The position numbers were made by a program, and so were the translations under genes. Below are positions 470 through 56,958 of a DNA stretch of 64,000 nt, piece by piece (position 1 is the first letter of the stretch; each line of letters opens with the position of its first letter). This DNA is from Paramacrobiotus metropolitanus. Its lineage: Eukaryota; Tardigrada; Eutardigrada; Parachela; Macrobiotidae. Below the pieces are notes generated by a model. It saw only the letters and a list, made by a program, of their open reading frames with translations, was not told the origin of the DNA and did no database searches. The DNA lies in contig NW_026570317.1 of NCBI RefSeq assembly GCF_019649055.1, positions 248,001-312,000 of the forward strand, given 5' to 3'.

Positions 470-488
470 ACGTGCCTAATAAAAAAAA

Positions 489-1835: not shown

Positions 1836-1842
1836 CTTTGTT

Positions 1843-2172
1843 TTAAATTTTTCCCAGCACAAAACTTAGCACAGGAGGTAAAATTAGGGATAATAACGCG
1901 GCACCCTTTGCTAGAAGAAAATTTCTTTTCTTGCGGCGAGAGACGTTGCGTTTTGATAGTAATTTCACATACGGCAATACACGCTTAAGCCGTGCGGCTT
2001 TGCTTGTTTCAGTGACAGGAACAACTCCTTCAACAATTTGTAAAGCACACTCAGAAATAGCATCAATGAGAGTATCCTCAGAATTTTTTATGATTGCTTT
2101 GATCAACTTGGGTTTGCTTTTTGCAATAGATGATAGCAAGTCTAGATTAGAAACGGTATGACTGCGCTCCAT
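1843..2172 (-). CDS. Small basic Polinton protein with hydrophobic C-terminus
   Basis: The ORF encodes 109 residues from the ATG at 2172. The N-terminal half is helical with repeated Lys/Ile/Leu; residues about 60-90 are strongly basic (RLKRVL, KRNVSRRKKRN); the end is hydrophobic (LLSLILPPVLSFVLG). Small basic proteins of this shape recur in animal Polintons/adintoviruses and have been compared with adenovirus core or membrane-active proteins; that role is inference. Its ATG overlaps the stop codon of the upstream ATPase by one base (TAATG), typical of compact viral gene blocks. Confidence 0.6.
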   Translation of the reverse strand: MERSHTVSNLDLLSSIAKSKPKLIKAIIKNSEDTLIDAISECALQIVEGVVPVTETSKAARLKRVLPYVKLLSKRNVSRRKKRNFLLAKGAALLSLILPPVLSFVLGKI

Positions 2173-2831: not shown

Positions 2832-3081
2832 TGTTGAGACTGTTGCTGCCAAATCCTAGTAACTGACGTGTACCGTCAAATAAAAAAGTAACAAGCGGCA
2901 TAACAACTGATTTTAAAGGAATGCGGTTAGTAACTTTTAGTGCGATTACAGTAATAATGCGCACTGTTTGAGAAAACAGAAAAGGTACAACATAAAAGAG
3001 CATCCAGAACAGAATCCCATGTGGCTTTGGCTGCCCATTAGGATCGTCCGGCACGTAAACTGGTGGCAACGGTGTATCCAT
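2812..3081 (-). CDS. Small membrane protein in the viral block
   Basis: The ORF encodes 89 residues from an ATG at 3081. A Pro-rich N-terminus (PLPPVYVPDDP) is followed by a long hydrophobic segment ILFWMLFYVVPFLFS, a second hydrophobic stretch around RIITVIALKV, and a third near VVMPLVTFLF. It probably spans a membrane two or three times. I do not recognise the family. It overlaps the ATPase start by 20 bp and shares its strand, so it is most likely a virion or entry-membrane component of the integrated element, but that is inference from position. Confidence 0.5.
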   Translation of the reverse strand: MDTPLPPVYVPDDPNGQPKPHGILFWMLFYVVPFLFSQTVRIITVIALKVTNRIPLKSVVMPLVTFLFDGTRQLLGFGSNSLNNGDPST

Positions 3082-3151
3082 TGTGACAAAAGATTCTACG
3101 AAAAAATTAATTTTTCTGTACGATTCAAAATGACAAATGACTGAAAAATGT

Positions 3152-3592
3152 TTACCAGCAGTGGCAGCAGTCGTTGTTGTTGATATAGTGGCAGTGGTTG
3201 TTCAGAATGCCGTAATCGCCCCAAGCTGGATCCATTGGTGGCCACACCCGGTTCGAATTGGTTGGCTCTTCCTCTTCATAGTCCGGGTCCTGCGTTGGAA
3301 AGCCGTAGATAGGATTTAGACGAATCATTGCTTCATGTACCTGGCACACGTTATAATAGAAATCGATGTTCTGGTACGACTGCAGCTGTTCGTCGTCCGT
3401 GCCACATGATGCGTAGATCTTCAGTCCAGTCTTGTCTGGCATTTCGGCGGCGATGCTGATATACACACGGACATGCTGCAACTTGCGTTCTTCAACTTCA
3501 CCTTCCCACTTACGCAGCTTCCACTTCAGGTAATTACGCATCCGTCCATGGGCCAAGTCGCGGACAATGTGCTTCCAGGAAGCTAAAGCCAC
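3152..3592 (-). CDS. Unknown protein in viral block
   Basis: This open frame of 146 codons begins at a GTG; the first in-frame ATG lies about 17 codons further in (MRNYLKWKL). The N-terminal part is basic, the middle has alternating strands (HVRVYISIAAEM, GLKIYASCG), and the end is acidic then Asn/His/Cys-rich (DYEEEE, NNDCCHCW). I do not recognise it. It overlaps the 3' end of the next ORF (3583-3903) by 10 bp in another frame, so the two may be separate overlapping genes or one gene split by a frameshift near 3590. Confidence 0.4.
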   Translation of the reverse strand: MALASWKHIVRDLAHGRMRNYLKWKLRKWEGEVEERKLQHVRVYISIAAEMPDKTGLKIYASCGTDDEQLQSYQNIDFYYNVCQVHEAMIRLNPIYGFPTQDPDYEEEEPTNSNRVWPPMDPAWGDYGILNNHCHYINNNDCCHCW

Positions 3593-3903
3593 CTTGTTTT
3601 GAACGTACGGTCAGGAAATCGCTCCTGAATCTCGGCAAGTTGTTCCACTGGCTTGACAAATTTAAAAACCAACTCGGCGAGGCGTTGCATTTCCGAAACA
3701 CGCTCAAACTGCACTCTAACTGCCATGTTCAAAAACGGATAATCCTCAGCTGCAAGCGCAAAACGGTTCTTCAGTGCATTATAAATTTCACGGATGTAAA
3801 TGTCTTCCACCGCTGTTGCAGGCATAAAGTACGTAATTCCATCAGGAAAACCCATAACATGACCCGTTGGATAAAGTGCACCGACAACGCCACTGAACGC
3901 CAT
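3583..3903 (-). CDS. Unknown protein in viral block
   Basis: The ORF encodes 106 residues from an ATG at 3903. It begins with a Gly-rich hydrophobic stretch (MAFSGVVGALYPTG) and continues with a helical second half (EMQRLAELVFKF, PVEQLAEIQERF). I do not recognise a family. It is the outermost gene of the minus-strand block that contains the packaging ATPase, so it is probably part of the same integrated element. The ORF at 3152-3592 overlaps its end in another frame; a single frameshifted gene is possible. Confidence 0.4.
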   Translation of the reverse strand: MAFSGVVGALYPTGHVMGFPDGITYFMPATAVEDIYIREIYNALKNRFALAAEDYPFLNMAVRVQFERVSEMQRLAELVFKFVKPVEQLAEIQERFPDRTFKTRWL

Positions 3904-4891
3904 TTTGAAGGAAAATATTCTAAAACCGAAATGAAGAAAAAGTTCAAATGATTATCGAAAAAGAATGAAACGAAAAGCCGTTATGCTACGGAAGATAATG
4001 CAAAATTGTTTACATAGTGCAGCCAATGATTCGCAGTGCAGACAGACTACTGGTCATTCGTAAAAATAATGTAGACCGGTATACCCGCCTCTTGATCTGC
4101 TCGGATAAGAGCAGCGACAATAAGAGGGGTGGGATCACGCAAAAGCGTTCGCTTTGAACCTTTACGATAGAAAAGTTTTCGAAACAGCATTTCAGTTGCC
4201 AGCTCACCAGACGAGTAAATTTGGACAGAACAATTCACCATGCATTGATTGTGTGAACCACAATCTCCAGTTTACTTTTATTTTCTAGCCGTCAAGTTTA
4301 TAGCCGTGCGTTCTGTGACCTGTGCATTCGTATGTACAGCTCCCCGAATGCATGGTTATAGATGCGATGTGTTTTATGACAGGAATGGTCAGCATATTCT
4401 ACTTGTGGATGGCACCATTATTGTTATACTAATACTCTTTTATTCGTTTATAGAGGTGCATACCGCGGCAAATACAAATGTATATGCCGTGATAGGCACC
4501 TTTATAACGGAAAGAGATCATCATACAGCACGTTAATTATAGTCCTCATGGCATTAGCATACACAATTTTTGTAAGCGGCCACCACTGCAACTATGATAG
4601 CGCAGCTGTCAATTGACGATACATCTCGGTTGAACACATTTAAATTGTTTTTGATGGCACAGTAATATGCTATGACGCCACATTGTATAGCATGACGCCA
4701 GTAATATCAACATGCAACATCCTACCACAAGGCTGCAGTGCTTTGCATAAAATGCGTTTCCAGTTGTGTTGATACATAGCCGAGCACGTGCGTTCACTTT
4801 TGTCAGTCAAAGCTATGGATCTCCAGTTTGTGGTGACAGTGTGGTGATAATCAGCAAATTTCATGTTTCTATCTGAATACGTCCTTACAAA
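3904..4891. other. Spacer between viral block and LRR gene
   Basis: Only short frames are present. One minus-strand frame of 64 codons starts at an ATG (4241) and contains ALIRADQEAGIPVYIIFTND, which looks protein-like but cannot be assigned. A plus-strand frame at 4249-4536 is not convincing. I could not identify viral termini. Confidence 0.3.
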
Positions 4892-5593
4892 ATGGCGTTT
4901 GTTTCTTCCGTTTTCGTTTTGTTGTGCTTTTGCAGCGGTGTAGACTGTGGAAAGTGGATTTCATGCTACGGAAAGTGTCAATGCAAGTATGACACAGGCA
5001 CCGTGAACTGCGCTGGCAAAGACCTCCATGCGATCCCATACCCCACCGAACCCAAAACCTGGATCCGTCACATCGCCTTTAGTGGCAATTCTATCCGCAT
5101 CGTTCCTTACTACGGACTGTCAGTGTATTTTCCTAATCTGCTGTCGATCGATTTATCTGGAAATCCTATCAGTGAGTGTATCGCCGCACCACCATTTGTG
5201 AAGTTCCGTGTGCTCTCCGTTTGTGGCTCCTCCGACAGCTCTTCTACCCCTGGCACTCCGACTGCTTCCAAGATCGCGACTACAACATACTTCGGCACCG
5301 AGACTGCTGAATCCTCTGTGAGTGCCTTGCCATCGGAGACGAGCACCATTGTGGATAAGAATACGGAGGCGAGCACCGTTGTGGATGAAGACACGGAGAT
5401 GAGCGCTACAAACATCATGTACTTTTGCATTGGTGCTGTTGCTGGTGTAGGGACAATTATCGCCTTTCTCTGCTTTGTGATGAAAAAGTGTGCCAAGAAG
5501 AACGGACCAGCCCGTCTTCGACTGAAAGCTCCTGATGATGGCATCGAGATGGGCCTTCGCAACGATACGGTTTCAGAAATGTCTGAAGTTTAG
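4892..5593 (+). CDS. Single-pass LRR membrane protein
   Basis: This intact, intronless ORF encodes 233 residues. Residues 1-19 form a signal peptide (SVFVLLCFCSGVDC). A cysteine pattern at about 25-40 (SCYGKCQCKYDTGTVNC, followed by LHAIP) matches an LRR N-terminal cap, and two leucine-rich repeats follow (WIRHIAFSGNSIRIVP and FPNLLSIDLSGNPIS). Residues 112-172 are Ser/Thr-rich, a likely O-glycosylated stalk. A transmembrane helix spans about 175-197 (GAVAGVGTIIAFLCFV), followed by a basic stop-transfer segment (KKCAKK) and a short acidic cytoplasmic tail. It is therefore a type I surface protein, probably a binding receptor. It lies 1 kb from the integrated viral element; whether it is host gene or captured cargo cannot be decided here. 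Several AATAAA-like signals follow (about 5824, 5882, 5953). Confidence 0.8.
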   Translation: MAFVSSVFVLLCFCSGVDCGKWISCYGKCQCKYDTGTVNCAGKDLHAIPYPTEPKTWIRHIAFSGNSIRIVPYYGLSVYFPNLLSIDLSGNPISECIAAPPFVKFRVLSVCGSSDSSSTPGTPTASKIATTTYFGTETAESSVSALPSETSTIVDKNTEASTVVDEDTEMSATNIMYFCIGAVAGVGTIIAFLCFVMKKCAKKNGPARLRLKAPDDGIEMGLRNDTVSEMSEV

Positions 5594-6002
5594 TTACTTT
5601 TCATAGAGAGAGAAATATGTACAGATTTGTTTTTACATTTATTGAATCTCACAATGATGACCAAATGATAGTCAGTATTCTGTTTACAGCAGCTAGCGAT
5701 ACGGAAATGTGATTCGCTAGTTTTATTTACGACAGTTTACATTTTATTGATGTGAAAAAGATAGTTTTTGCTCTTCTGCGATTGTGTTCTGTCTGTGAAA
5801 GAGTCATAAAATTAGGAATGCGGTAATAAAACGCGGATACAGGTGTGTTTGTTCAGTTGTGTTGTGGTTCTCCCTGATCCCTAATAAAATGGTTTGTTTA
5901 CATAAGACACTTTACGACTTTGACTTCTCCCTGCTCCCTTTGACCACCGGTCAATAAATAGAAGTTAAAAGAACATGTGCTTCTACTACTTCATTGTAAG
6001 GA

Positions 6003-6955
6003 AGTTTCATCTGTCCCCTATAACGCTTAGGAAACTGTTGCGACAAAATGGGACAAGCTATCAGCAACGTTCGCAGAAAAGATACCAGCGGAAGCAAACA
6101 GCTGTTTTAAAGCTTCACGCTTAGGGATTGTATAGGACCGAAATAGTCAAGCAGCTTAAAATTGGTTTGAGGACGGTAAACCAGATTTTCGAAGATGCCG
6201 ACCGAGGTTCTGTTACGGATGAGCATTCACTGAGCACGGCTCCTTGCGAACAGGATTCGGAAAGGATCGCAGAGGAACGAGCCGTGAAAACACCGGAACT
6301 TGCTGAAAATTGCGGCAATAAAACAGTAGAGGGGCGTCGAAGATGGACTTGGCTGGAAACCATGCTGCGTTCTGATGAAACGGCTAGGCGCGCTAATTAT
6401 AGTGGCGCCATTCGTAATAATAGCGCGGCGAGTTACCACGACGGACTCACGACAGCGAATGCTGGTGTGTTTGCGGGTGGCATCGAAGAAGGAGCTGTTG
6501 TGCACGCTGAAGCGGATGCTGCGAAGCGCCAGGCAAAAGAATGCTCCGGCAGTGCAATCACTATGCAGCCAAAAGGAATCACAGCAGTTGTTAGCCTAGC
6601 ACCTACAGATATAGGTGAAGACGGCTCAGCTGATATGTCTCTGCTTGCACAAGACGCCGAAGACGAAGCCATTTCAGAAACAGACAACCACAACTTTTCC
6701 AGTGCCAGCAGTCATGGAATGCTACAACCCAATGCCTTTGACGATTTCTTTGACGGAAACAATATCTTAAGCGATATGGCCAATGCGATTGGACTCACGA
6801 CAGAGCGTCCAAACAGCATCCCCAAGTCTGACCCCCTGCAATGGGAAATTCAAATACCGTCTAAGGCTTCCACTTCCCAGCCAGTCAAGAATGTCGAACG
6901 TCAGCGCTGTCGAGCATCTAAACGCAGACAGGCCGCAACGGATGCACACCACTGA
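6003..6955 (+). pseudogene. Decayed copy 1 of a multi-HTH protein gene
   Basis: The last 276 codons (6128-6955) are open but begin at a TTG. They start inside the final helix-turn-helix unit (IVKQLKIGLRTVNQIFEDA) and continue into a long acidic, Ser/Ala-rich region and a basic C-terminus (CRASKRRQ). The sequence from about 6003 to 6127 aligns with the upstream HTH codons of copy 2 (39346 onward) but carries changes that break the frame. The two copies also share about 300 bp of 3' flank. This copy keeps an Arg codon (CGA, near 6342) where copy 2 has a TGA. A DNA-binding role for the ancestral protein is inferred from the HTH units. Confidence 0.55.
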
Positions 6956-7275
6956 GAATCTTCGGCTAAAAATTCTCAAAACGCCTCATCAAATGTACCT
7001 CCGATGGTATGTTGCAGTGAAACCGAACAAGCATCAAAACCCTAACAGGTTGCAAAACTGCAGTGCGGATAGTTAGAACAGTATAATTATACCTTCTTGG
7101 TCCATTTTGTGCGAATTACAGCAAAAATAATTGTGTAAAATAAACAGAATAAAATCTTTCAGCGGAAGCAGTTAGCTACAAACATACCGCTGCTACTCTC
7201 GACCATCCATCTATAATTACAGTCTGGTCAGCGGCCGCGGTCACCTGTTAACGGAACGTGTAACATTACTCAAGA
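6003..7275 (+). repeat. Dispersed repeat, copy 1 (pairs with 39346-40670)
   Basis: Bases 6003-7275 align by eye with about 39346-40670 through coding and 3' flanking DNA, including a shared stretch at 7078-7110 (TTAGAACAGTATAATTATAC) and polyadenylation-like AATAAACAGAATAA. Identity looks like 80-85%. It is either a mobile element or a duplicated gene. Confidence 0.6.
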
Positions 7276-7454
7276 AAATTTATAAAATGCACGTATGCGC
7301 GTTGGCCGTATATACTCAAGGCGCGTGCAAACTGTGGTTGCCTGTCGGTCACCGCCATCTAATACACATATGCGCGGCATTCCTTTTATTAAAATGCATA
7401 CATACACTGTCACCCACCGCCATTTAATGCGTATTTGTACGGTCTCCACATAGG

Positions 7455-7589
7455 CAGGGGGTAAAACGTGTCTGTGGCACTTGCCAGTGGCACTGCCAAC
7501 GGCATGGCAAGCGATAAAACCTGGAGACTCTGGCAACTGGCAAACGATAAAAGGTGGCAGATGCCGCATAAAATGTGGCACCACGTATA
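7455..7589 (+). repeat. 135-bp inverted repeat, left arm
   Basis: The reverse complement of this block matches 11195-11329 with only a few mismatches. It contains many short TTGCCA/TGGCAA motifs, so each arm can also fold on itself. The arms are 3.6 kb apart. Confidence 0.8.
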
Positions 7590-8221
7590 AGCGGGTGACG
7601 CTGCGGTCCCAGAGTGTGTCGACTGTATATTACTGATATTTTTGAAACTCTTGATATTAATATTTCTTTTAAATTGTTTGCAAGTATTGGCCATGCACGG
7701 AGTTCGTAAGTAAGCTCTGGCATATAAAATTTTAAAATGTCATATTGCATTTTGCCGTTTGCCCGAAGTACCACAAATACGGTAAAAAAAGATCAGAAAG
7801 CGCATTCAAATTGCAATCGCGGCACTGCGAGATCTAGGAGGCACACCGCTGGACTATCCCTTACGGTTGTGCATGGTGCTTTATTCGATTAATAAAGCGC
7901 AGCTGACCGACAAGTTTTACTGTCAGTGCCATTAGCATCGTAGCTAAGCGTGCCAGCACATCCCTTTGGTGGCTTAGTTTGTGAGGATCGTTACCATAAG
8001 TTAAGGCCACCCACGAATAATTAAAGCTTCTGCCCAACCCGTAGCAAAATTGACACGATTTTCTCAAAAAGTTCAAAACACTTTTACTAGTTTCTAAGTT
8101 GTTTTAGCAATTTTTTGAGTAGCCGTACTTCAACAGATAAATTACCACAATATGCAGCAAAATTATGCGCACTCACACACACTGGCTCACCGTCATTTCG
8201 TCGACTAACCCTACTGAGTCC

Positions 8222-8244
8222 TGACGGTCGACAGTCGACCGTCA
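8222..8244. repeat. Perfect 11-bp palindrome with 1-nt spacer
   Basis: The arms TGACGGTCGAC and GTCGACCGTCA flank a single A. No neighbouring gene suggests a function. Confidence 0.6.
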
Positions 8245-10767
8245 AGAGGCCGACTTACCAAGAAAATATGGGAAAAGATTAGAGAATATAAGAAAATTTA
8301 AGAAAGTGTAAGAAAACATAGGAATGCATAACAAACTTAAAAGAACTGGGACGGTTCATCAGCCTTTAGCTAAACACCAGCCCGACGTCGTGTCTGCTCG
8401 ACGAATTTTCTTCGACGAAATGGAGCGCACACATACGCAAATTCCATATTTAAATTTTTACCATTCCCACTCTCCTGTAAACTAATAATTCCGAAATAAA
8501 TAAGCTGTATGACGCTGTACTACTGGAAAGTATCAAAGCTTATTAAAACTGCAATAGTAGTTTTTTGCACTGTATACATAGAGCAATTACGTGTATATCA
8601 TGTATGTACATGGCGATATCAATTTTTGCACTGTAAGCATAACTTATACCTGCTTCGGCTAAATTGTGTGTTATTAGACCACTCCTTTCTGCTGTTGGGT
8701 AACTTTAATGGGTTATTCACGTTAACATAGATTAAAAGCAAAATTACGCAGTTCATCATTTCAACACGTAATACACTTCGTCCAGTCTCTTACCGATAGT
8801 CTCTCTTCTGCTGTTTGATAACAATACGAAAAGTCAGACATCTTTCTGTGTTGGCTGGTATACGGCCAGTGCAGCGCACCATGGTGCATAAGTTATGATT
8901 CATAGAGATAAGGACGGGTATGTTAGAAAACCGAGCTGTGCAGCGCGGTATCTTGAATACGTGCGGTATAGTTGTTTTGACCATTCGGAGCGCAGATAAG
9001 CTCCGGATCGATGATGACACACGTTACCCGTCGTTATCTACTGCGCATTATGCACAGAAAACCAACTGGCGTTGGAAAGATACAGGAATGCCTGAGTCTT
9101 CGCAATGATGTATTGCGATACCAATACTGCATGCTTTCAACTGTAGATAGAAACACGACATAATATTAAAACAACAATTAATGGTTTGGTACTGGTGGTC
9201 AAACTTTTATAGTCCTTTAATTCAAAACGATGTTCATAATGCTAAGCAGTATAAGTTGATTAACATACCCAGTAACACTCTACCGCAGGCCTGTGTTATG
9301 GACGACAAACATTTTGGACTGGGAAGGAAAATATAGTGCTGTAGTGAGTGTAATTGCTTGTAAACATTGCGAGAACATGTCTGCAGAGAAAAAGACAGAT
9401 AAGTGAAGACCTTGTTTTTGAAAGTGTCAACTACAGACTACGACCAAGAGCCAGCAAGGTGGTAAAACACTAAACAGTGTCACGTTTTAATTTTTAATCT
9501 AGCGTACTCAGTACCGGCTCGTCCCATCTGTTCGGTATACTGGCAAGTGGCACGTGAACTTTGCTGTTATTCCAAAAAAACCGGCGCCTTGTATATGCGC
9601 ACATTTTTATATTCACAGGGTAGCTCCACAAACAGCTAACCTTATCTTGTTGTTTTGCTTACTGATTATTTTGCCCGTTGTATATACTGAAGTAGTGGGG
9701 AAAATCATGTGAACCAGCAGCAGCAGACGAACCCAAGCGGTACGTGTGAATTATATTATCCTGCTTTGCGGTGTGCGACTGTGAAACACAGGTGCGATCA
9801 ACGTTGAAAAGTTTACATGACTGATTGTGATTCTTATTCTGATTTGTGGCGCTATTTTTAGAGTGTCTTACATTACCGGCACCTGCCGTTACTGTCACGT
9901 TGGTGAAATGTGGACTCTTTTAAATTGGCTAGAAATCATAGGATCATAGTGACGGGCGACGTAAAAATAAATTTGTATTAGTCTGTGTCTGTGTAAGTGG
10001 TATTAAGGTATTCGACTACGATGGCAATTTGGGTAAGTTGTTAGTAGTTAAATTGTTGTTCCACCTCTTGTCGCTTTAGTTACCTAGTATTATTGACATT
10101 CGGCAGATTTTTACCTTAAAGCTTCTAATAAGTCTGAACACACTACACTACACTGTGTACTTTTAGTATGCGTATTACACCGTAATTTTAAAATGGTTCA
10201 AAGGTTAATTTAAAAGGTACTGTTACCGATAAATTTGGTACAGATATGCTTGCAAAATCGGACCGCGAGCGTGATAGTACTTGTAGTCTTGTACATTGTA
10301 AGCCGCAAGTTGACTACAAAGACTACGCTAATTAGTTATCAGCGTCATTCGTGTACTGTATCTGTAATTTTGATTTAGTACTGCACAGTGTTAATTCAGA
10401 TTAACAGTAAGCAATTTTGAAGTCTAAACGTGGGAACACAGTTAAACACATAAATAAGTAACACGCACACCACAACAATATGGCGTTCTGACATGAGCAG
10501 CGAGAGTTGGGTGCTTATATCGCACGTATACCTGTACTTTCAGAGTTTGCAACCGAATACTACAAATAATTGCAAAGTACGCCGCGATAGGTTACTTGGC
10601 TTACTTCGAAGTTTGGAGCCACAAACAACTTAATTTTTGCAGCTATGGTCACAGCGGCGCCGGTAAAAATAATGGAATATACATAATACCCTGTAAGCAT
10701 GGTTTCTTAGGTTATGACATAGGGAAGAACCGGGTCACAGCATCATTAACTCAAGTGGCGCGTCTGA

Positions 10768-13247: not shown

Positions 13248-15717
13248 TTACGGGGTAAAAATAGAATCTTTGCTCATGGCAGCATAAATCTCTTCCAGTT
13301 TTTCCGTAATTTGCTGCGACGAAATGCGACTCTGGCTATTATCACAGAGCGCTTCCTCAATCAAACGAGTGACCCCGGGGTCGGTCGGACGCTTCAAAAG
13401 CGGCACGAAGCCATCAGCAATTTTGGTTAGAATTAGTAAGTCAGACGCCAATGTGATTTGCAGTTCTTCTGTGGTTCCTTTGCGCCATAACCATTTCTCA
13501 AGTATTCCCGCGCTGTAATCCACCAAGTCAATAATAATACAACCAAGACTCCAGACATCTGTCTTCCGGCCAATTTTCTCGCCGTCCTGCCCGGCAAGAA
13601 AGGTCTTGACCATTTCTGGTGACATGTAACGCGCCGTTCCGCGCATATGCGTGATATCTTTTGTGCATGTCCGATTACTCATCATTACAATGCCATCATC
13701 CAGGTCTCCAATGAGAAGTTTATGGCCATTAGGCTTTAAGCGCATCAGAATATTGGCTGGCTTAAGATCGCCATGTATAAATTTATTAGAATGGAGATAC
13801 GCTAAACCTGTTGAAATCTGACGTGCAAAATTAACGACGGTAACTAAGTAAACTTGTTTCGGCGCGGCATCCAAGTTTGCAATCAAATGGGCCAAATCCC
13901 CGTCTGTAATATCAATCAATAACTATTAGAGTCGCTAAAAAACACTTTACGATTAAAACAGCCGTGGTTCTAGACTGGGTCACAACAGCCATTTTTTTAA
14001 AATTGTCCACCTAGAATCGCACCGGCCGGGCGCCGCAATCCTCGGAACCCCATTCAAGGTGGCCCACACTGCGCTAAACTGTTTTTTGCCTAAAGCAGTA
14101 TATTCACCTTGAATATAATCCATCACCAATTCTACTGTTGTTCCTCTGTCCGTTTTGAAGAAGCTGATTTTATGGTATCGGATGACATTTGCATGTTTGA
14201 GCAGCAACAACTGTTTCCATTTTGCAGTGGATGTGTTCTTCTCCTGTAGCATAGCAAGCATTGATTGCCGCATAAAAATTTCCTTGATAGCCACAATATT
14301 CCCAGTTCCAGAAAAATTGCCGCGATCAGTTATCAAGGCTTTGTACACTGTCCCAAAAGCTCCTTTGCCGATTCCATCGGTTCGGGGTTGGTATTCACAA
14401 CTGCACGAACAGCCAAAGCTTTTATGTGGGTTGGACTCACTCTGATTATCGCAATTCGTTTCCGTATCATAATCGGATTCCGAAATTGGGACGTTATTAT
14501 TCTGAATTTCCGGTGTGAGTGATATCTGAACACAGAAAACAACTCTAAAATATAGCTATATATATATATGTTAATTTACCAGGGCACTACCAACGTGAAT
14601 TTAATATTAATTAGCGTTTGCTAACAAAAATAATGTCCCACAAAAACTTTTACCGGTGAACATATCCGCAACATGGGGTGCTTAATAAGCTCTTCGACGG
14701 CAGGCCGCTTGTTGGCAACCGCCTGAAAACATAAATCGAGGAAATTCTTCGCCGCATCTAAAAACTGCCGGTCATCTCCGCAGTCATCCCGGTCTAACTC
14801 AGGACGGTAGAACGGTTTTTCCCCCTTGGCCAGCGCCTGCTGGACTTCTGCAGGTCTAATCCGAAGAACGAGCTCCCCGTTGGTCTCTTTCCGGTAGAAG
14901 CGCGGTGAGTGTCCTTGCAGCATCTCCAGCAGCACACAACCCAACGCCCATATATCGCATGCCAGCCCCACCTGGCCGAAAGTTGCATTAAAGGCTTCGG
15001 GTGCCATGTAAGAGATTGTTCCCACTCCGCGGCGCACTTCATCGTCCCCGATTGCAGAAGGGTCTAACTGCACCAGCAGACCAAAACTGGCAATTTTTGG
15101 CGTGCCGTCCACCGTGAAAAGAATGCTACTGCCATTCAAATCGCGATGGGCAACGTGCCGTTGATGAAGATAGCGAACGCCGTTCAGGACGGCGGTAAAA
15201 TCGGCTTGGATGTGTAACTGGCTGTATCGTTGCTGCATTGAGACATGAGTTTGGATTTTCTCCCTCAGTGTTCCCCCTGCAATAATTCATTAACATTTTT
15301 AAAACGTTCTTGCAAGTGCAGGATTTTATTAGCAAAATATCTACCTGGGCAATATTCCATAAAAATGCGGATTTCCGGGATGTTCTCGAAATAAGCGATG
15401 TCCACAAAGAAATATTTAACAAGATTGTGCTGAGAATTTTTTGTCAGTTCCAGGATGCACTTGAAATCTTGAACATAGCGGTGTAGCTCGGTGTGATTGC
15501 TTGTTTTTTCTAGTTCAATACACTTAACGGCATAATGCTGGCCCGAATTGCTGTCTTCCGTGAGAAACACTCCACGGGATCCCCCACTCACGCCTAGCAG
15601 AGTGTCCAGCTTATGCTGAAATGGCGGGCGATATTCGGCAATACCAAAGCGGTTAATCATCTCCTCACAAGTCTCGTCATCGTTCTTTTCAGTCTTTTGC
15701 ACTGTTTTTACGGACAT
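13248..15717 (-). CDS. Tandem pseudokinase-kinase protein (4 exons, 689 aa)
   Basis: Exons by eye: 15717-15345, 15276-14654, 14525-14108 and 13903-13248. All introns are GT-AG (68, 128 and 204 bp), the phases agree, and the joined frame is open for 690 codons. Domain 1 has a poor glycine loop (LLGVSGGSRGVF), the beta-3 Lys (HYAVK), AHRDLNGSS where HRDLKxxN is expected, and SFG in place of DFG. It is therefore a likely pseudokinase, although APE and DIWALGC remain. Domain 2 has GIGKGAFGTVYKA, VAIKE, HGDLKPANIL and GDLDDG in place of DFG, then GTARYMSPEM and DVWSLGC. It keeps the catalytic Asp, Lys and Asn and could be active. The arrangement recalls JAK- or GCN2-like pseudokinase-kinase pairs, but the closest family cannot be named. 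There is no signal peptide or membrane span, so it is probably cytosolic. Confidence 0.75.
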
Positions 15718-16539
15718 GGTTAAATGAAAACTGCAAACTGCGTCCCACAACCGATACAACTTCTTTACAGATACAATGCCAACGGTAAAGGGATAGTTTT
15801 GCAAAGATATACAGTTTGTGACATCTGCAAATTCTGACAACTGCAAAATATGTTATTCAAGCGTAAAAAATTAACTCCTTTTACTCTACTGTGCTAACAG
15901 CTATGAAACACCGTTTACTCTTGACATGAATGTCACGTCAATAAAATGTTCTTTACTGCCTGCAGCAATGCTTGAACACGCTCGCACATGATATTATGGT
16001 GCAAAGAAAGATGAAACGATTAGCACAGTTGCAGCCGTACTTTTACCCCGGAATGTCCTTTGATGACTAACGGTATATTGTCAAGTTCTGATCAATGTTC
16101 TGCTTAATTTTCTGCCTAACCCCACATGCTATAACTGCTAGTACCGATGTATTAGAAAAACTTCATTGGGTATATTTCCATCCATCAATTCTATATATAT
16201 TCTATATCTATAGACCATGGGCGTTTGTTACTTGTATGGCCGACAAGTAAGGATCCATCTATACAAGTAACGTCATGACCGAACCCACAACGCGGCGATT
16301 CGCTGCCGCGCAAATTAGATGTATGCGTGTGTGAAGGCGGTGCCAAAATCCGTCCACGTAAGGCCATTACGTGTATGCCTGTGACTCCACCCCTTTGCAT
16401 GCGTACATACAAGTTGCCGATCCAGCTGCCAGTCAACCTCAAAATTTCAAACGCTCGTCTTTCGTTTGCTTCTCAACGGATCTTCCCAATCGACATATCA
16501 GAAGATGAAGAATTAAATTTCAAACTTTTTGGTATCTAA

Positions 16540-31080: not shown

Positions 31081-31114
31081 ACGGCAACAAAAAAACATTA
31101 AGTACACACCACCT

Positions 31115-32160
31115 GCACCAAGCAAAATTCCCGGACAGGATCCAAAAACAGACCCTTTATACTGTTTGAATGGCAAGTTCGTGAAAAATGTCCCGGTGGT
31201 CCCCCGCATGTCGGTTCCCCAAAAACGCACCAACCGGGGTGGCAAAATCTCCGGACCGGGTTCTTAAAAACGGGCCCTCCATACTATATGTATGGCGGGT
31301 TCGTGAAAAATGCCCCGGTGGTTCCCCGCATGTCAGTTCCCCAAAAACGCACCAACCGGGGCGGGCAAAATTTCCGGACCGGGTCTAAAAAAACGGGCCC
31401 TCCATACTATATGTATGGCGGGTTCGTAAAAATTGCCCCGGTGGTTCCCCGCATGTCGGTTCCTCAAAAACGATCCACCCGGGGCGGGCAAAAATCCCGG
31501 ACCGGGTCCAAAAAAACGGGCCCTCCATACTATATGTATGGCGGGTTCGTAAAAAATGCCCCGGTGGTTCCCCGCATGTCGTTTCCTCAAAAACGATCCA
31601 CCCGGGGCGGGCAAAACTCCCGGACCGGGTCCAAAAAAACGGGCCCTCCATACTATATGTAAGGCGGGTTCGTGAAAAATGCCTCGATGGTTTCCCGCAT
31701 GTCAGTTCCCCAAAAACTCACCAACCGGGGCGGTCAAAATTTCTGGACCGGGTCCAAAAAAACGGGCCCTCCATACTATATGTATGGCGGGTTCGTGAAA
31801 AATGCCCCGGTGGTTCCCCGCATGTCGGTTCCCCAAAAACGCACCAACCGGGGCGGGCAAAAATTCCGGACCGGGTCCAACAAAACAGGCCCTCCATACT
31901 ATATGTATGGCGGGTTCGTGAAAAATGCCCCGGTGGTTCCCCGCATGTCGGTTCCCCAAAAACGCACCAACCGGGGCGGGCAAAACTTCCGGACCGGGTC
32001 CAAAAAAACGGGCCCTCCATACTATATGTATGGCGGGTTCTTGAAAAACGCCCCGGTGGTTCCACGCATGTCGGTTCACCAAAATCGATCCAACAGGGCC
32101 GGTCTCTATGAGTGTACCGGGTCAAAATTTACGAGCTCCTATTCATTTACTGCAGCAGGT
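31115..32160 (+). repeat. 123-bp satellite array, about 8 units
   Basis: The landmark ATACTATATG recurs at 31281, 31404, 31527, 31650, 31773, 31896 and 32019, an exact 123-bp spacing, with worn copies at both edges. Because 123 is a multiple of three (41 codons), long open frames appear on both strands (31288-31662 and 31672-32166 on plus; several on minus). Coding is not supported by any start, splice or domain evidence. Units contain GGGCCC and runs of six or seven A. Confidence 0.9.
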
Positions 32161-32204
32161 CCGTGAAAAATAACCCGGTTGGTTTTTCGATTTTTTTACT
32201 ACCT

Positions 32205-43086: not shown

Positions 43087-46000
43087 ATGGGAATTATGGC
43101 TGAAGAAGAATCAGTTAAATTCATTTCAAAGAGTCCATGGTTAGCGGAGAACAGAAGGCAGAGATTTCTCGGTATATGGCGCTACGTCACTATAGGTAGC
43201 AATTTTTTGTCGAGTGGCACATTGAGCGCGGGATTATTTATCGTGGTAAGTGTCGCTGAATCAAGTAAAGACTCGAAATCTTAGCAAATAGTAAGCGATG
43301 AATCTTTAAATTATTTAGCTGCAGTGCCGTGATTCTGAATTTTGGTAGCTTTGATAACGTGCCTTGCACTGCTGCAAAACATTAAGTACATATTTGAATT
43401 ATTGTCAGAAAAGGCTGCGCAAAGACCAATACTAATCGTTCTGTGCCAACCACCGGCAGAAAGTTCAAGAGACTAATGGCTGGTGATCAAAGGAGTTACA
43501 AGATAAACTTTTCTGTAAACATAAACCTTTCTGTATACATAAGCCTGTACACAATCCTTTCTGCCTGGTTCCGGCAGGAAGGATGGCGCAACGTTAACCT
43601 TTCTAGCCTGAGACATGCGCCAGATCGGCATTCGCAAGATAATGGCTCCTCTGTTGCAGCTGCAGGTGCGACAGTTCTACAACATCGCTCACTCGTTGGC
43701 GGCGCAAAGCGACAACACACAGGACATACACGTACATTTCTTGGATAAATGGAGCGCTATTGGGATTGGGCTGATTGTTGCAGCGCTCGTTAGCATCTTC
43801 TTCGGAATCGTCAGTCTGATGGCTCACAAAAACGCGTGGACGAAAAGACATCCAAAAACCTGCACGACGCTAGTGAGATACAGCGCTCTATATTTCTAAT
43901 TATACCGCTGGTAATACCGCTGGTGGGGTTTTAGGCTGTCATCATAACAGTCGGCGTACTAGTGGCCGAAGTAGCATCCGCAATTTTACTGCAGCAGAGG
44001 ATTGGTGATAAGCAGCCATCGGAAGAAATTGCCGCGTTGAAGGAGCAATACGCATACCTTCCCACACAACTGACAACAAACGGTGCGGTGGTTATTGCAC
44101 CTTCACAATTCAATGCCACAAGCGACCCCACGCCACCAGAAGCGCTGCAAAAAACCATCGTTTTAAATGCGCTCCAAATGATGGTATAAGTATATGAATG
44201 GCATAAGTATATGATGGTCATAAGACTCATAACGATGTGGACGTCTGGACCGGTTTGGCTAACGAATCTAAAACCTTAAGCTTATGTAAATGCGAACTTC
44301 ATAGGGAAGTGAATGCGAACTTCATAGGATACTCGGTAAACAAAACTTGTACTTGCACGAAAACTTTTGAATTCGTTCACTCAAAAATAAAACTTTCGCG
44401 CATTGTTTTATGACATTCTGCAACCAAATTATTTTTATGCTGACGTGAAAAACCGTTTGTGCGAGCAGCATTCGGTTTCACGAAAACTCCACAAAGCCTA
44501 AACACTTTCAGATGTACAAAATATCTCGTTTTCCAGTTTCAGATGTACACTGCATTTTCAACTAGTCCGTAGAACTTTTGGGTTAATGGAATCGAAAATT
44601 ACTGTGTGCGGCGAAAAGCAAAACTAACAATCAGCATAATATTATTTAAGTATTAATAAAAATTAATAATAGCTCAAATTTACCGGCATAATGATGCCCA
44701 TAACAAAATAAAATTTCTCCATCAAAAAGCATACAGCTTAGGACAAAATGGTCGCATACCCAATATCTCCACATTCAGTACGATTGCAGCGCAGTGCACT
44801 GTACGACTGAGTTCAAAATATCCGTTTCGTACAAGTGCACTGCACCGCTTGCGTACAGAATGCTGGGTACGGGGCTATGCGACCATTTAGTCCTACATTG
44901 TATTGGTGTTAATGCATATCTAGTTGCATTGCTGCGGTACTGAAGCCGACTACGAAGACTTCCATGATGGGTTGTACCATAATCAATCCTTCCCGTTGTT
45001 CTCGGCCCCGGTCTTTTGCTGTCATTTTAAGGATCCCATCAGCAGAACGCTGACGGACCGGAGCTGCTATTTTGATACATACCGCCAGTCGCAGACGTTT
45101 CAACGCGTACGTAAACCCCACAAAAAATATCCCGTGGCAAGTTCATTACAGCACAACCACGACATTGTGTAATAAGGCGCTGTTTTACTTAGGGTTGCGT
45201 GGATGCTGTCAAGGAGTACCGGCACAGCACCTTTCCCATTATGTTAACAGTGATATTTGGCTCAATAGTTCTCAAGGTAAGACCCTAGTATTGCGTTGCC
45301 GGTTTTGGTTTTTTTAACTCCATAATGGCATACCGACAAGACTTACGATAACTTATGCGGATAATTAAGTGTGCTGTAAAAAGATGCGGTTGCTGTAGGT
45401 CATTGTGCACATTGTTGATCGGGCTATGGTGTGGTCGTTACCCTGCAAGGTGAGACTATTATGGCCGAACGGTACACCCACAGTCCGGTGTAGGACAGTG
45501 AGTCCGCGTTGACCGTACCGAAACGGTGTCGTTAGTGAAATTTACTGGTGTCGTCGCACGGCGCCAGTTTGTTGGCTGCGAGCACTGCACGTATATGCCA
45601 ACTGTCATGCCATGTACAGATCTGTACAGTATAGTGAAAATGTATGATTGTGAGTTCATTCAGTTAGTACTGTAATTAACTCTTTCGCTAGCTCAGACAA
45701 AATTTGCTGACATTTTTATAACATAGCAAGATGATGAGCATTGCCATCGTAATATTCCCTTCAATTTATAACGCCTTTGCGGATGTTTTTGTTTTCAGAT
45801 AGTTCGGTCGCGCCGTAATCCATCAATCGTCAAAATAGGCGTAACTGACCGAACCGCAAACAGAGAATCAAATGAATTAGACGTTTTAAACTCGGAAAAC
45901 GAGGATTGTTTTCGAAGATGGCATCAAGTCATAAAGCATGATGGGGAACAGCACCTGGGAAGTTCTTGTAGTTATGAGAAGGATGCCATAATTGGTCAAG

Positions 46001-47122
46001 GTCGTTATGGCAGGGTATACAAAGCCCGTATTATGTCTCGTGGCGACTTTACCGGTCCCCCCGTTGTGGCTGTTAAAGAACTTATCGTGCAACGACAAGC
46101 CGATACGTTATCACTGACGAACGAAGCATATGCTCAAAAATGGGAGGAGCTGCTACGACTGCGCCATGAAAATGTAATGGCCTACCATAAGGTCAGCTTT
46201 TTTACATCGGGTACTGCCATGCGGATAGATTTGCTGATGGACCTCATGCAAGGTAATTCTGAAGAATCAGCTGATGCGAGCAGTGTATTTGTAATGTTGA
46301 AGGCCAGTTAACAATGTGCGCGATGCGGATGTTCTCCAACAAATCACCAAGTTCGGGAGACCGTTCGTCCAAATAAAGTCATAAAAAAAGCGAGAAAATT
46401 CGATTGATGCGTGTCGGGTCAAGCTAAAATCCTCATTCTTTTTCTAAAGTGCAGGTGGGGATTTGGCCCGTTATATATCCGACCGCAATGCAGCACCAGG
46501 AACAATGTTCTTAATCACCGCCGTCGAATTTGCACGGCAGATTTCCGGTGGCCTATCGTATCTGCACACCAACAACATTATCCACGGCGACCTGAAGCCA
46601 GCCAATGTGCTCCTGAGGGCGCAGTCGGACCGGTGCACGCTATTCATTGGGGATTTGGATGAGCGGATCGTAATGCAAAGCAATCTGACATGTTCGGTCG
46701 ATGTTACACACTCGTGCGGAACCGCCCGTTACATGTCGCCCGAAATGATAAAAAAGTTTGCTGTCGGGCAGACGGACCTGAAAATTGGTCGGAAGACGGA
46801 TGTTTGGAGCCTGGGTTGCATTATGATAGACCTCGTAGACTGCTGCTCGGGAATGGGAGAAAAATGGCTATGGAACAAAGAAACAGCAGACGAGTTCCAG
46901 ATCATGAACGCTGTGATGGACAACGTAATTTTTATGAAATTATTGGAAGGCTATGTGCCGTTATTGCGTTGCCCGATCATCCCGGACGATTACGGAATTA
47001 CCTGTCTCATTGACCGCGCACTCTCTAATGACAGTCAGAATCGCATATCGTCCCACGATCTTTTCGACAAACTGGACGCAATGTACTTACACATGTGCAG
47101 AAAGACGACACTAAAACAGTAA
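43087..47122 (+). CDS. Predicted tetraspanin-protein kinase fusion (8 exons, 686 aa)
   Basis: Exons by eye: 43087-43245, 43660-43872, 43935-44183, 44924-45106, 45193-45276, 45399-45449, 45799-46252 and 46455-47122. All introns are GT-AG; introns 1-6 are phase 0 and the last is phase 1. Exons 1-6 encode a full tetraspanin. TM1 (about 31-53) has the Asn of YVTIGSNF; TM2 lies at about 84-108, and TM3 (AVIITVGVLVAEVASAIL) at about 122-142. The large loop has CCG at 210-212, a second CC, a Cys and a GC at 269-270; TM4 spans about 281-302. The next exon enters a kinase domain in phase: IIGQGRYGRVYKA, VAVKE, HGDLKPANVL, GDLDER in place of DFG, GTARYMSPEM and DVWSLGC. The kinase exons match exons 3-4 of the gene at 13248-15717 in phase. 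The kinase would face the cytoplasm. Alternative: two adjacent genes. Confidence 0.6.
44330..44490 (+). repeat. Dispersed repeat in intron 3 (pairs with 57425-57555)
   Basis: AAACTTTCGCGCA, TTATGACATTCTG and CGTTTGTGCGAGCA occur in the same order at about 57440-57545, with scattered differences. Confidence 0.6.
44751..44893. mobile_element. Mariner-like MITE with TA duplication, in intron 3
   Basis: This 143-bp near-palindrome begins GGACAAAATGGTCGCATA and ends TATGCGACCATTTAGTCC. It is flanked by TA at 44749-44750 and 44894-44895. TA duplications fit the Tc1/mariner superfamily. It lies about 30 bp before the splice acceptor of the exon with the CCG motif. Confidence 0.75.
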
Positions 47123-49502
47123 TGTGTACGCCAGTGGTAACACTATAATAAATGTGAACAAGCGACCTGGTACTGTAGTGCACAATCGCACAGGTGCAAT
47201 ACCATTCCGGCAAATGTATTAGTAACCATCACATTTTGAAAGATCTTTACTGTAGCTTCTGCAGACACATACAGAGTATGGCATGATGTAAGTCCGTCTA
47301 CAGCATTGGCACGGTTTCGGTGTATTATGAGTGAAGACGGTATCCGTCATAAACGAACTCTCGTGACTCGTGAGACGTGTATTAATCATCGATATTTTCA
47401 TTTACTAATAATTCTTGCCATGTATTGGGTGCTCATGTGTGTGTAACTATGTTGAGGCACGTCTATAAACTCTATGTTAACCATTTTGCGAAGAAAATAG
47501 CGCTGCATATTTTCTGAAGTTATATTATATTATGTAATAATAATAATATAGCTTCAAGCTATGGATCCATGTCGTGTGATATTGTAACTTGTAAGGTTGT
47601 AACTGAAGAAAGACAGAAATTAACTGAGAGTAGAGAGAACTCTAACGTTTGTAAACTCTAGGAGAGACAGACATGTAACTTTTGTAGCTTAGGAGAGACA
47701 GAAATGCTGTAACTGAGGACAGACAGGGTGCAGATGCTGGGAGGAGCAGGTTATGTGAACAGTGAAAGAATGCACTGAATTCCAGTGCCAGTTGATCCAG
47801 AGTTTCAAGCATTAGTTTTTCGTTTACCCTTCCATAAAACTTGTCAACCTACATCTCAGAAGATAGGGAAAAAATTCAGAAGCTTTTTGATCTCTGACAA
47901 GTAATTATTTATGGCGAACCAAGAAAGTTATGCCTGTTTTTGTTTCTCGTAGACACAGCATAGGGTGCAAGCAACGCCTCCATCGCACGGACCCATGCTA
48001 TGTCTATGAAAAACCGAAACAAACTTAACTTTCTTGGTTCGCCATAAAAACTTACTCTCACGATATCAAAAAAATTCTGAAATTCTATTCTCTGTTCTGA
48101 AACATTGACTGGCAAGTTTCGTTAAGGAGACATAGAAAAACGGATGCTGCAAGTTTCGAAGATCAAGTGGCTGTCGCGACTTGGATTCGCTAGCCAGAGT
48201 AATACATGTATGCGCGTACGCCAGGTGGCTGCCGCAGACCAGCTCGCTCCAAACCGACCAACAGCCATGTACTCCAGCAAACTTCCCAAGTTCCCAGTAA
48301 ACAAATTTACAAAATTTTTTTGCAGTTTGAGTTATTATTATGTAATCAAACCGTCGATTTTCTTCGCAAGTGTCCCGACGTTTACGAGGGTCGCCAGGCT
48401 AGTGTTTTTATTTTAGGGACCACGTCCCCGTGGCCCTTTCACTCTCTATGCCACTGAGTGGTGGTAGTTAGCGTGCAATAGCGTAATTTTAGGTTTTAGT
48501 TTACAGTCAAACATCGCGAGTACACAACTCGCATCACGATTCACGCGCTACATTTGATAAAGCCAGTTATAGGCTAGCACAAAAAGCTCTACCAAAAGAA
48601 AGCTACTATGCTTTGTGAATTAAAACTGCTTTACCACGTCCTGGGATCCTTTGGACTGTGCCGTATGTATTGTTGCAGAAATAGATTTTATCACTGAATC
48701 TGTTCATGAAAAACATAGAATATTGCACGCGAGCTGTTTCCGGTCCAATGCCATTAGTTTTCGCCTATTTCGGATTTCTATGTGTCGCGTACTCAGTTTA
48801 CCGCACGACTTACGGGCAGCGGCTCGGTAATAGTTTTAAGTCAATGCTGTACTGTACATGTACTGTACGCGATCGTTGCACGCAGCCCGTGTTTACCCGT
48901 GCACCTAGTGGTAGTGTAGTTCTGATGAGCCGTTACAGTAATGCTGCGGACATTTAAGCGTCTTCTACTAATACCTTCTAAAACACCCGGTCGTCTAAAA
49001 CGCCTGCAAACGTTTTGGGCCCCCTTAAACTGTTAAAAACATCAGCCGATATTTTTTCAACCCAGTATTTATTCAAGGTGACTTAGGTGAGCAAGTTGCT
49101 GTGGTACCACAGACGGTTTCAAATGCTTTCAACACAAATCAACAGAAGTATCTATCTATATTACACCAACAAAAAAATAGCAAATATTTTAGATTTTTAA
49201 ATCCTGTTAAATGATTGCTTCTTTCGAATTTGCAAGATTGTGGTCTGAAATACGAGGTTTCAGTACGGTTTGTACGGAGATTGTCAGATGGAGTACGATG
49301 TTTGTACGGATCTGTGGTGCTACTGTAGTTCAGCAAGATAACAAACGTTCAATAAATCAGTATTTATGTGACTGTTTACTCTTGCGGTGAACATTCCGCG
49401 TGCAGCTGGTCCACATTTGAACAAGCAAACCTTGGACATCCTGCGCTAGTGAAAAAATTCATCAAGGTATTAGAATATTTTTGAATTTGAAACTCAATTT
49501 AG
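47123..49502. other. Intergenic stretch
   Basis: No supported gene is seen beyond the palindromic MITE at about 47908-48052. Confidence 0.45.
47908..48052. mobile_element. Palindromic MITE
   Basis: The ends TTATGGCGAACCAAGAAAG and CTTTCTTGGTTCGCCATAA are exact inverse copies over 19 bp, and pairing continues inward with mismatches (CATAG blocks). A half copy lies at 16552-16610, where the upstream flank (CTTTTTG...TCT...ACAAGTA) is also similar. The superfamily is unclear. Confidence 0.7.
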
Positions 49503-54900: not shown

Positions 54901-55066
54901 TCTTGTGCTTGTTGGTTGATGTGGGAGATATGGTACCGGGGTTTTGCAAAAGATCAGCATGTATATGGGGTTAGCCCAGTTTGATTACTATTCAGGTTAT
55001 AGGATATTATGAGCTGGATGTGTCTGTGAACTATGAATGGATTTCAAACTTAAATTATGAGTGACC
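51973..55066. other. Intergenic stretch
   Basis: No convincing gene is seen. A frame at 52893-53123 overlaps a set of hairpins at about 52990-53160 and is probably chance. Confidence 0.45.
53100..53158. repeat. Alternative overlapping hairpins
   Basis: AAAGGTTTATG can pair with CATAAACCTTT three bases downstream. AACCTTTCTGC, which overlaps that second arm, can instead pair with GCAGAAAGGTT. The two stems exclude one another. A further perfect hairpin (ACACAAAGCCG/CGGCTTTGTGT) lies at about 52994-53016. Confidence 0.7.
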
Positions 55067-56958
55067 ATGGCGCTCAACTTGTTGAATAGAAACGATATGA
55101 CGGCGTACGAGGAGCTGATGCAGCGCTGGGGGATAACCGACATAAGTCCGCCTTTTCAGTATAGGCTGCACAGCAGACTGGGTAAACACGGACTGTGCCG
55201 CCACATATTTTGGACAGAAGACAAAATATCCGGCCGACATTATGCTGTTAAGCGCATGGAACTGTACGACTTGCAATACGGTCCGGATCTGAAGCGGAGG
55301 ACTGATGAGTTCCGAGACATTTTGAAATTCAACGAAGATCCTCACAAAAACGTGCTTCAATATTTTTACATCGAAAACTTGTACTCCACAATGAAAAACG
55401 ATGTTCGCATTTTCATGGAACACTGCAAAGGCAAGCAGTACTGCAAGGTAAGAAAGGCATTGCAGAAAGTCCTAATTACGGTATTATTCTTAGGTGGGAC
55501 AGTGCACGAAAAGATTCAGACTTTAAATGCAAAAAAAGCAACGCTATCAACAGGCCAACATTCGCCGAGATATACAATCATGATGTCCTCAGCGGTGTAA
55601 ATTATTTGCATCAGCGGGGCATTATCCACCGTGCTCTCAAAAACCAGACGATACTATTAGCTATTGACGGCACGCCGAAAATTGCTGATTTCGGCTCACT
55701 GGTGCACTTGTACCAGATTTCTGCCGGCAGGAACGGCGTTCACCAGGGCGACAAATCCACAGTGTACATGGCGCCAGAATATTTTGAGCGCGCTTTCGGT
55801 GTGTTGGGTCGTTCCCGTGATATCTGGGCGCTAGGATGTGTTCTTCTGGAGATGTTGCACGTGCACCAACCGCATTTTGTTAACAGAGCGAACACGGGCG
55901 GCTTGGACCGATTGACACAAATCGAGGACATAAAGGCGGCCTTGGCCAGGGGCGAGAGACCGTTTTATTATGAGAATGTCGGACGAGACGGCTGCGAAGA
56001 CTCGCAACCGTTTCTGGATTCTGCAAAGCATTTCTTGGACGAATGCTTCAACTGCAGAAAAGTTGTCGGAACATCCGTTTGTGAAAATAAGGTGAGTTTC
56101 CTATGAAGATCAACATTAGGTGCGGTGTTCGTTCGAACGAAGGGTAAAATATCATTTTGTAGGTAACGGCCGTGTCTGCTTCTTCACTCGGTAAACCGGG
56201 AAATTCGGTACTAAAGCTGCCTGAAGTACACAAAAGCCTTGGCTGCTCTGGCAGCTACGAGTACGACCCCAGGACCGCCAAAATCGGACAGGGAGGCTAT
56301 GGCACAGTATGCTCCGCCAAGATAACGGTCTTCGGTAATTTCCCTGGCCTGCAAACTGTAGCTGTCAAAGAATTCTTCCTGCGGCACAACGATCTACCAC
56401 CGAAGCGTAATTTTATGCAATAAAATGGAGCAGCTGTTGGGACGATACTACAAGGTTACTTTCCACGAGACCGATTTAGGCGCGACCGTGGAATGGCTAA
56501 TGGATTATATACCAGGTAATTTCGACGGGATTAGCCTTGTCAGCAGAACATAATTGTCATATTTACAAAGTAGCAGATATTGTTCGTAGTAAGTGCTAGC
56601 AAGTGACTGCTCAGCGGATGGATATTATCGTAACCTTGGTTCACCCCATAAACCCGTTTTCAAATCTGTTTTCAAATTTAGGGAGAAGTGGTTATGGCGC
56701 AGAGGAACAACAGACACCGTTCAAATCACGTATGCGCAAAGCTACGTCATTGTGAGCAAAATAGCTGATGGTTATGTGCCACTATTAACTTGCCCTACAT
56801 ATTGTCCGCTGATCAGTTTGATATAACGCTCACTCTGCGACGATAGCAATCAGAGAATATCGTCAAAGGACTTGTTCCCGGAGATTGATGCCATTTATGT
56901 TTCCATGTGCGAGATTTTCCGTAATCAACCAAGAGTCCACGATCAACGTCCTAGGTAG
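55067..56958 (+). pseudogene. Decayed tandem pseudokinase-kinase gene
   Basis: The exon order matches the gene at 13248-15717. Exon 1 (55067-55430) keeps a beta-3 Lys (HYAVK) and ends at AAAG|GCAAGC; a GC-AG intron of 63 bp restores the expected phase into GTVHEKIQT. Exon 2 changes frame twice before HDVLSGVNYLHQRG. HRD is HRA in this copy (IIHRALKNQ), while DFG, APE and DIWALGC remain. A further break precedes AEKLSEHPFVKI. The second domain starts with KIGQGGYGTVCSA and VAVKEFF, then stops (FMQ) with a codon deletion and frame change. The exon with HGDLKPAN, the DFG position and the activation loop is gone; sequence resumes at EKWLWRRGTTD and ends with a damaged C-terminus. Not functional as a kinase. 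Confidence 0.7.

Follow-up and report, generated by a model that had tools for sequence, protein, structure and literature searches.

A tetraspanin joined in frame to a protein kinase domain in a predicted gene of the tardigrade Paramacrobiotus metropolitanus

Introduction

Tetraspanins normally gather kinases as separate partner proteins. In the genome of the tardigrade Paramacrobiotus metropolitanus (169.8 Mb searched), one locus raises the question of whether tetraspanin and kinase can be parts of the same protein: within a stretch of 64,000 nucleotides of contig C97 (G000:C97:248001-312000, hereafter the window), the exons of a tetraspanin are followed on the same strand by those of a protein kinase domain, which here would be a covalent part of the product. 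We conclude that the locus is very probably one gene, encoding a single fused protein in which a tetraspanin carries a Ser/Thr-type kinase tail (686 amino acids with an optional exon 6, 669 without it).

If fused, this protein offers a natural test of whether tetraspanin clustering suffices to switch a kinase on. The locus also has the look of a clear instance of exon shuffling: relatives of both parents, with the lost halves still attached, occur in this one genome. Its kinase comes from a large family, several of whose predicted proteins are receptor-like in architecture. The protein is already held at NCBI as uncharacterized and its sequence is not new; its reading and its origin may be.

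Results

The tetraspanin half

Four paralogous loci of the window tetraspanin (L047-L050), each covered within one stretch, serve for comparison. The nearest, L047 on contig C1 (~3323-8880), corresponds to LOC129597654 (P0002, 1038 amino acids). The exons of the window tetraspanin, all on the + strand, are:

43087..43245, +: tetraspanin exon 1, start codon and first span; phase 0; 46.6% identity over 58 amino acids to L047 exon 1; present in NCBI protein P0001
43660..43872, +: tetraspanin exon 2, small loop and second span; phase 0; 58% identity to L047
43935..44183, +: tetraspanin exon 3, third span and start of the large loop; phase 0; 59% identity to L047
44924..45106, +: tetraspanin exon 4, carrying CCG and PVFCC in the large loop; phase 0; 64% identity to L047
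45193..45276, +: tetraspanin exon 5, GC and fourth span; phase 0, donor AAG|GTAAGA; 75% identity to L047
45399..45449, +: optional exon 6, which adds 17 codons past the fourth span; donor CAAG|GTGAGA in phase 0; absent from NCBI isoform X2

The start of exon 2 at 43660 is backed by both L047 and the NCBI protein. The Pfam tetraspanin profile PF00335 scores 42.2 bits against a model that includes exon 6 and begins exon 2 at 43666, and 39.0 bits against P0001, which lacks exon 6; both are above the curated cut-off of 32.1 bits. Hydropathy peaks of P0001 at residues 36-54, 86-104, 124-142 and 280-298 give the four membrane spans, the first of them weak (1.43) and matched by a similar extra peak (1.45) that falls inside the kinase domain. 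Exons 4 and 5 supply the cysteines of the large loop (CCG, PVFCC, SC), followed by GC before the fourth span. Typical tetraspanins have a short C-terminal cytoplasmic tail; here the tail is ~370 amino acids long and holds the kinase.

The kinase half

45799..46252, +: kinase exon 1, opening in phase 0; carries the linker and the N-lobe with glycine loop and VAVK
46455..47122, +: kinase exon 2, encoding the C-lobe (HGDLKPAN, IGDLD, SPE) up to the stop TAA at 47120-47122
47147..47152, +: AATAAA, 25 nucleotides past the kinase stop; no evidence either way on the number of genes

The kinase profile PF00069 matches P0001 at 119.5 bits, over its cut-off, along profile positions 1-258 of 263, and thus covers both lobes. 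The catalytic residues are kept: the lysine of VAVK, the aspartate of the HxD motif (HGD), the asparagine of the catalytic loop (PAN) and the metal-binding aspartate (DLD). HGD and DLD stand where canonical kinases have the arginine of HRD and the Phe-Gly of DFG. These variants recur, as HGD and [G/A/S]DLD, in 35 of 36 P. metropolitanus matches, a sample that leans to the like of the window kinase, which was the query; the one exception carries no kinase. Since all 35 kinase proteins share them, the variants read as a trait of the family and not as decay. By sequence, the closest solved kinases are MAP3K2 and MAP3K5 (~60 bits each); the domain, a Ser/Thr-type kinase, is thus distant from all solved kinases and most like MAP3K.

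Read in frame, the kinase exon reaches its first ATG at 46033, already past the glycine loop. Since, in addition, the domain appears to descend from the start-less C-terminal half of a tandem kinase (below), the kinase would have to be entered from an exon further upstream; exon 5 and exon 6, each with a phase-0 donor, can serve as such.

The junction and the NCBI gene model

45450..45798, +: junction intron, the meeting point of the two parent genes; holds TGA at 45510-45512 if exon 6 is read through

The strongest evidence for one gene is external to our exon reading: NCBI's own model of the locus, LOC129596869 isoform X2 (P0001, 669 amino acids; one of three member sequences of its protein cluster, and the one compared here), carries both PF00335 and PF00069. 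Our exon model with exon 6 (686 amino acids) differs from P0001 by the 17 added residues of that exon and is otherwise identical letter for letter. Isoform X2 omits exon 6 and joins exon 5 directly to the kinase exon, which opens at 45799 after the acceptor TTTTCAG in phase 0. Exons 5 and 6 both end in phase 0, so forms with and without exon 6 stay in frame.

An earlier note on this DNA, made from the letters, had described six phase-0 exons with every tetraspanin landmark, a strong phase-0 donor at exon 6 facing a phase-0 kinase acceptor, and a single in-frame four-pass product. The PF00335 score, the four spans, CCG and GC bear out the landmarks; donor and acceptor are both as described, and the second kinase exon of a tandem kinase elsewhere in the window (the sister gene, below) likewise opens in phase 0; and the NCBI model is this very fusion. 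The in-frame join is therefore supported; the route through exon 6 is not the one taken in isoform X2, where exon 5 is spliced straight to the kinase. Neither this optional use of exon 6 nor the rod-bearing paralogue described next figured in the note.

Paralogues of the tetraspanin continue into a rod

L047 has the same six exons as the window gene, in the same phases and with the same exon-6 donor (exons 1-5 at 47-75% identity; 58% over the tetraspanin). There the donor follows ...WSLSGK and leads into further coding exons, so exon 6 is internal to the paralogue. Past its fourth span P0002 continues into ~700 amino acids of helical-looking rod with weak talin signals: Talin_IBS2B at 24.9 bits and I/LWEQ at 15.4 bits, below their cut-offs of 27 and 27.5 respectively, and talin-1 in PDB at an expectation value (E) of 6e-4. 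This architecture is unusual in itself, and would couple a tetraspanin directly to a rod of adhesion type.

Matches to the rod exons follow the tetraspanin exons in the right order in L048 (best E 7e-12) and L049 (2e-8) as well; none was found within the stretch covered for L050, so that rod exons are matched at three of the four paralogue loci. The kinase exon, at E 1e-3, was found in none of the four (0/4) within the stretches covered. Conversely, seven paralogue-exon queries detected no rod exon in the window (best E 0.07), and a genome search with two rod exons returned three matches, on C1 and C104 only and none on C97.

Relatives of the kinase are C-terminal halves of tandem kinases

13248..15852, -: sister tandem kinase (N-terminal kinase K1, C-terminal kinase K2), NCBI P0003, 689 amino acids; related to the gene that donated the kinase half, with its start codon inside the window

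Two trees place the window kinase. The first, of 36 rows, leaves out five of the 36 P. metropolitanus proteins (one without a kinase, four without the N-lobe) and adds four N-terminal domains and the locus L051 (a row only 35% filled). In it the window kinase falls in a four-row clade (support 99/98) with the C-terminal domains of the tandem kinases P0003, P0006 and L051. In the second, of 11 chosen rows, the tandem group (98/96) encloses it and P0003 is its sister (87/86); the branch of the window kinase is about double that of P0003 in length (0.78 vs 0.40). Identity to the window kinase is 50% for P0003, 48% for P0006 and 43% or less for the rest.

The second kinase exon of the sister opens in phase 0 with CAG|ATA, as in the window kinase. 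By eye, the phases of the K1 donor and the K2 acceptor agree at three of three tandem loci (sister 0/0, L051 1/1, L052 1/1), and the sister's K1-K2 intron, of 128 nucleotides, contains no ATG; K2 therefore originated as a C-terminal half that lacks a start of its own. The K1 domain of the sister lacks the DFG aspartate (IASFG), and looks like a pseudokinase. Where the tandem plan has its N-terminal kinase domain, the window gene has the tetraspanin.

The tetraspanin thus appears without the rod of its paralogues and the kinase without the K1 of its relatives, both losses meeting at one junction. A single recombination, between two introns that share the same phase, accounts for this coincidence, which otherwise calls for two independent truncations at facing ends. 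As judged from exon structure and homology, the most likely origin is one recombination between intron 6 of a tetraspanin-rod gene and the K1-K2 intron of a tandem kinase, both in phase 0. The proposal that exon shuffling had put a tetraspanin in place of a tandem kinase's pseudokinase half gains support on both counts, from the clade with C-terminal halves and from the IASFG of the sister's K1.

Two more tandem kinases lie in the window. At 54998-56910 (+) is a further K1-K2 copy, probably decaying, in which the central catalytic segment of K2 is unmatched; from ~60672 (+) a tandem pair runs off the right end to ~65236 and continues in L051, its second kinase exon, as read here, shifting frame midway. 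With the sister, these make a neighbourhood that fits tandem-kinase parentage.

Selection on the two halves

Between the window tetraspanin and L047, nonsynonymous divergence (dN) is 0.27 and synonymous divergence (dS) 0.905 (dN/dS ~0.30); between the window kinase and the sister, dN is 0.418 and dS 1.613, near saturation (dN/dS ~0.26). Neutral decay simulated over 500 runs introduced on average 10.7 stops into the tetraspanin (0.45 changes per site) and 10.7 into the kinase (0.4 changes per site), with a lowest count of 3 in each; the real frames of both halves contain none. At 0.1 changes per site the means fell to ~4 stops and some runs had none, so stop counts leave room for a recent loss of function, and the simulation gives no date for the fusion.

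Searches for a second tetraspanin-kinase

Among 120 of 122 relatives found (8000 candidates scored), no second protein with both a tetraspanin and a kinase was seen; for one, the bacterial-type P0065, the Pfam domains were seen in part. A search with residues 1-300 of P0001, which reaches only relatives sharing exact words, returned only P0001 and P0002 among 4485 candidates, and a protein search with the tetraspanin alone, in a length window that excluded the fusion and the long paralogue, returned none of 2880. In the genome, 38 PF00335 places compared by eye with 150 kinase places (586 candidates, 150 scored) gave no second pair within 10 kb; this comparison does not show the fusion to be unique, since the 38 do not include the tetraspanin of the window, whose exons are presumably too short for that search. 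The kinase family is very large, with at least 150 matches to one kinase exon (all of the 150 scored among 586 first-look candidates).

Literature searches on tetraspanin-kinase fusions or on the locus names, with most subscription journals outside their coverage, found no such protein described; in PMC9145152 the sole mention of a tetraspanin is in a domain list. The earlier suggestion that no described family has this architecture holds for the matches and the literature searched, and does not extend beyond them.

Other features of the window

483-3951: a run of open frames, including protease-like and packaging-ATPase-like ones, which we take to resemble a Maverick/Polinton-type element
31102-32166: tandem repeats (KNGPSILYVWRV...) whose unit is open in several frames of either strand

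Discussion

One gene or two

The same DNA could be divided differently. Were there two adjoining genes, the tetraspanin would end at the TGA at 45510-45512, with a tail of 20 residues, and the kinase would begin in an exon of its own, ATGATT at 45644-45649, spliced in phase 0 to 45799. Such an exon does exist; its donor, ATT|GTGAGT, matches at 7 of 9 positions, and of the 14 ATG-to-GT candidates in phase 0 listed for the intron it alone has a GTRAG donor. The NCBI model nonetheless joins the halves, and both partners would have had to lose their old neighbours independently at facing ends. A stand-alone tetraspanin would have no need of the exon-6 donor, which is conserved, and the homologous exon of the sister has no start of its own, nor does the intron before it leave room for one. 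We therefore consider two genes very improbable. Poly(A) signals were tried as a means of telling one gene from two and given no weight: neither AATAAA nor ATTAAA occurs within 45513-45798, and among 30 related kinase loci AATAAA follows the stop in 7, as it does in 7 of 30 on the reverse strand.

That the halves lie apart in the animal, or that the model was merged without transcript support, strikes us as very improbable indeed. The analysis covered one assembly, from which the NCBI protein probably derives as well, so that this protein is no independent witness to the join in the DNA; against an artefact stand the 349 bp that separate the halves on one contig, in sequence read without any run of N, and the exon phases, which fit on both sides of the join. 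NCBI names alternative isoforms on transcript evidence, and the exon-skipping form bears such a name (X2). A rather less remote alternative, which we still judge unlikely, accepts the fusion as real and takes its kinase half as a pseudokinase scaffold that signals by binding and not by catalysis. HGD and DLD in place of HRD and DFG would suit it, and the sister's K1, without its DFG aspartate, shows that broken kinases occur nearby; the VAVK lysine, both aspartates and the catalytic-loop asparagine are all kept, however, and the variants are common to the family, as far as a sample biased towards this kinase can tell.

Several points weigh against an active fusion kinase born of a single recombination. 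The junction intron shares only short chance matches with the corresponding intron of either parent, and because it resembles neither, the joining event cannot be reconstructed. Given HGD and DLD, kinase activity is not certain. The order within the tandem clade is open in the 36-row tree, and the nesting of the window kinase, seen only in the 11-row tree, has moderate support. Of the relatives nearest to the sister's K1, many sit far from any listed K2 relative, so K1 and K2 are not always together. The low dN/dS values cover the time before the fusion as well as after it. Finally, we infer expression as one protein from NCBI models that are themselves predictions.

A proposed working

If the fused protein is made, the kinase would face the cytoplasm, given the cytosolic N- and C-termini of the tetraspanin family. 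Without exon 6 the fourth span leads directly into RSRR, which fits a stop on the inner side. The four spans and large outer loop would place the protein in a patch of membrane, next to its partners; crowding, or the binding of a partner, could then bring kinase domains together to activate each other, and the active kinase would signal in a MAP3K-like manner at the inner face of the membrane. By analogy with known tetraspanins, we hold clustering as the trigger to be a proposition on which belief and doubt are evenly balanced. Passages of PMC5382171 describe tetraspanins, CD151 and others, that bring PKC next to integrins or recruit PKC or PI4K. In CD63-PRKCD and similar tumour fusions, according to parts of PMC8008189, the PKC N terminus is swapped for a membrane-binding partner while the catalytic domain is kept; the title of that article calls PKC fusions paradoxically loss of function, which advises caution in assuming that the tetraspanin-kinase is active.

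A kinase family with many partners

Relatives of the window kinase are joined to other modules in predicted proteins, some of which may be false joins of the gene models. In P0024, P0018 and P0016, encoded on other contigs, an outer domain (leucine-rich repeat (LRR), amidase/PGRP-like and trypsin-like, respectively) is combined with one span; two of these domain types are used in immune recognition. Further joins are to an HSP70-like module in P0009, to an ankyrin-like one (below cut-off) in P0011, and to kelch in many. In the 36-row tree P0016, P0018 and P0024 group together (100/97), with P0023 beside them (98/94), apart from the clade of the tetraspanin-kinase; if this tree is correct, membrane forms have had two origins or more. 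It is about an even call, in our estimation, whether in this tardigrade members of one large kinase family have been shuffled onto membrane proteins that differ in topology (LRR, amidase/PGRP-like, trypsin-like, tetraspanin) as an independently evolved animal counterpart to plant receptor-like kinases.

Comparison with known systems

The order of domains and the presence of spans fit a receptor-like kinase, the sidedness being taken from the tetraspanin family; the window protein has four spans where receptor-like kinases have one. Within the same genome, P0002 shares exons 1-6, their phases and the exon-6 donor, and differs in bearing a talin-like rod instead of a kinase. The tandem kinases P0003, P0006 and L051 share the C-terminal kinase, of one clade with that of the window gene, and differ in that their N-terminal half is a second kinase. 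P0024, P0018 and P0016 have the motifs of the kinase family and a kinase after a span, but only one span, a folded outer domain and a place in a separate clade.

Among systems elsewhere, the channel-kinases TRPM6 and TRPM7 are likewise multi-pass membrane proteins with a cytosolic kinase tail; they are six-span channels with an alpha-kinase, unrelated in sequence. CD63 is itself a tetraspanin, and the nearest known analogue of the window gene is a somatic tumour fusion that involves it. From what parts of two articles describe, CD63-PRKCD of human fibrous histiocytoma unites a tetraspanin with a kinase catalytic domain, as here, and differs in being somatic, of PKC type and not inherited (PMC8008189, PMC10165924). 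With kinase-recruiting tetraspanins such as CD151, as treated in passages of PMC5382171, the kinase is a separate protein, whereas in the predicted product of the window gene it would be a covalent part of the tetraspanin itself.

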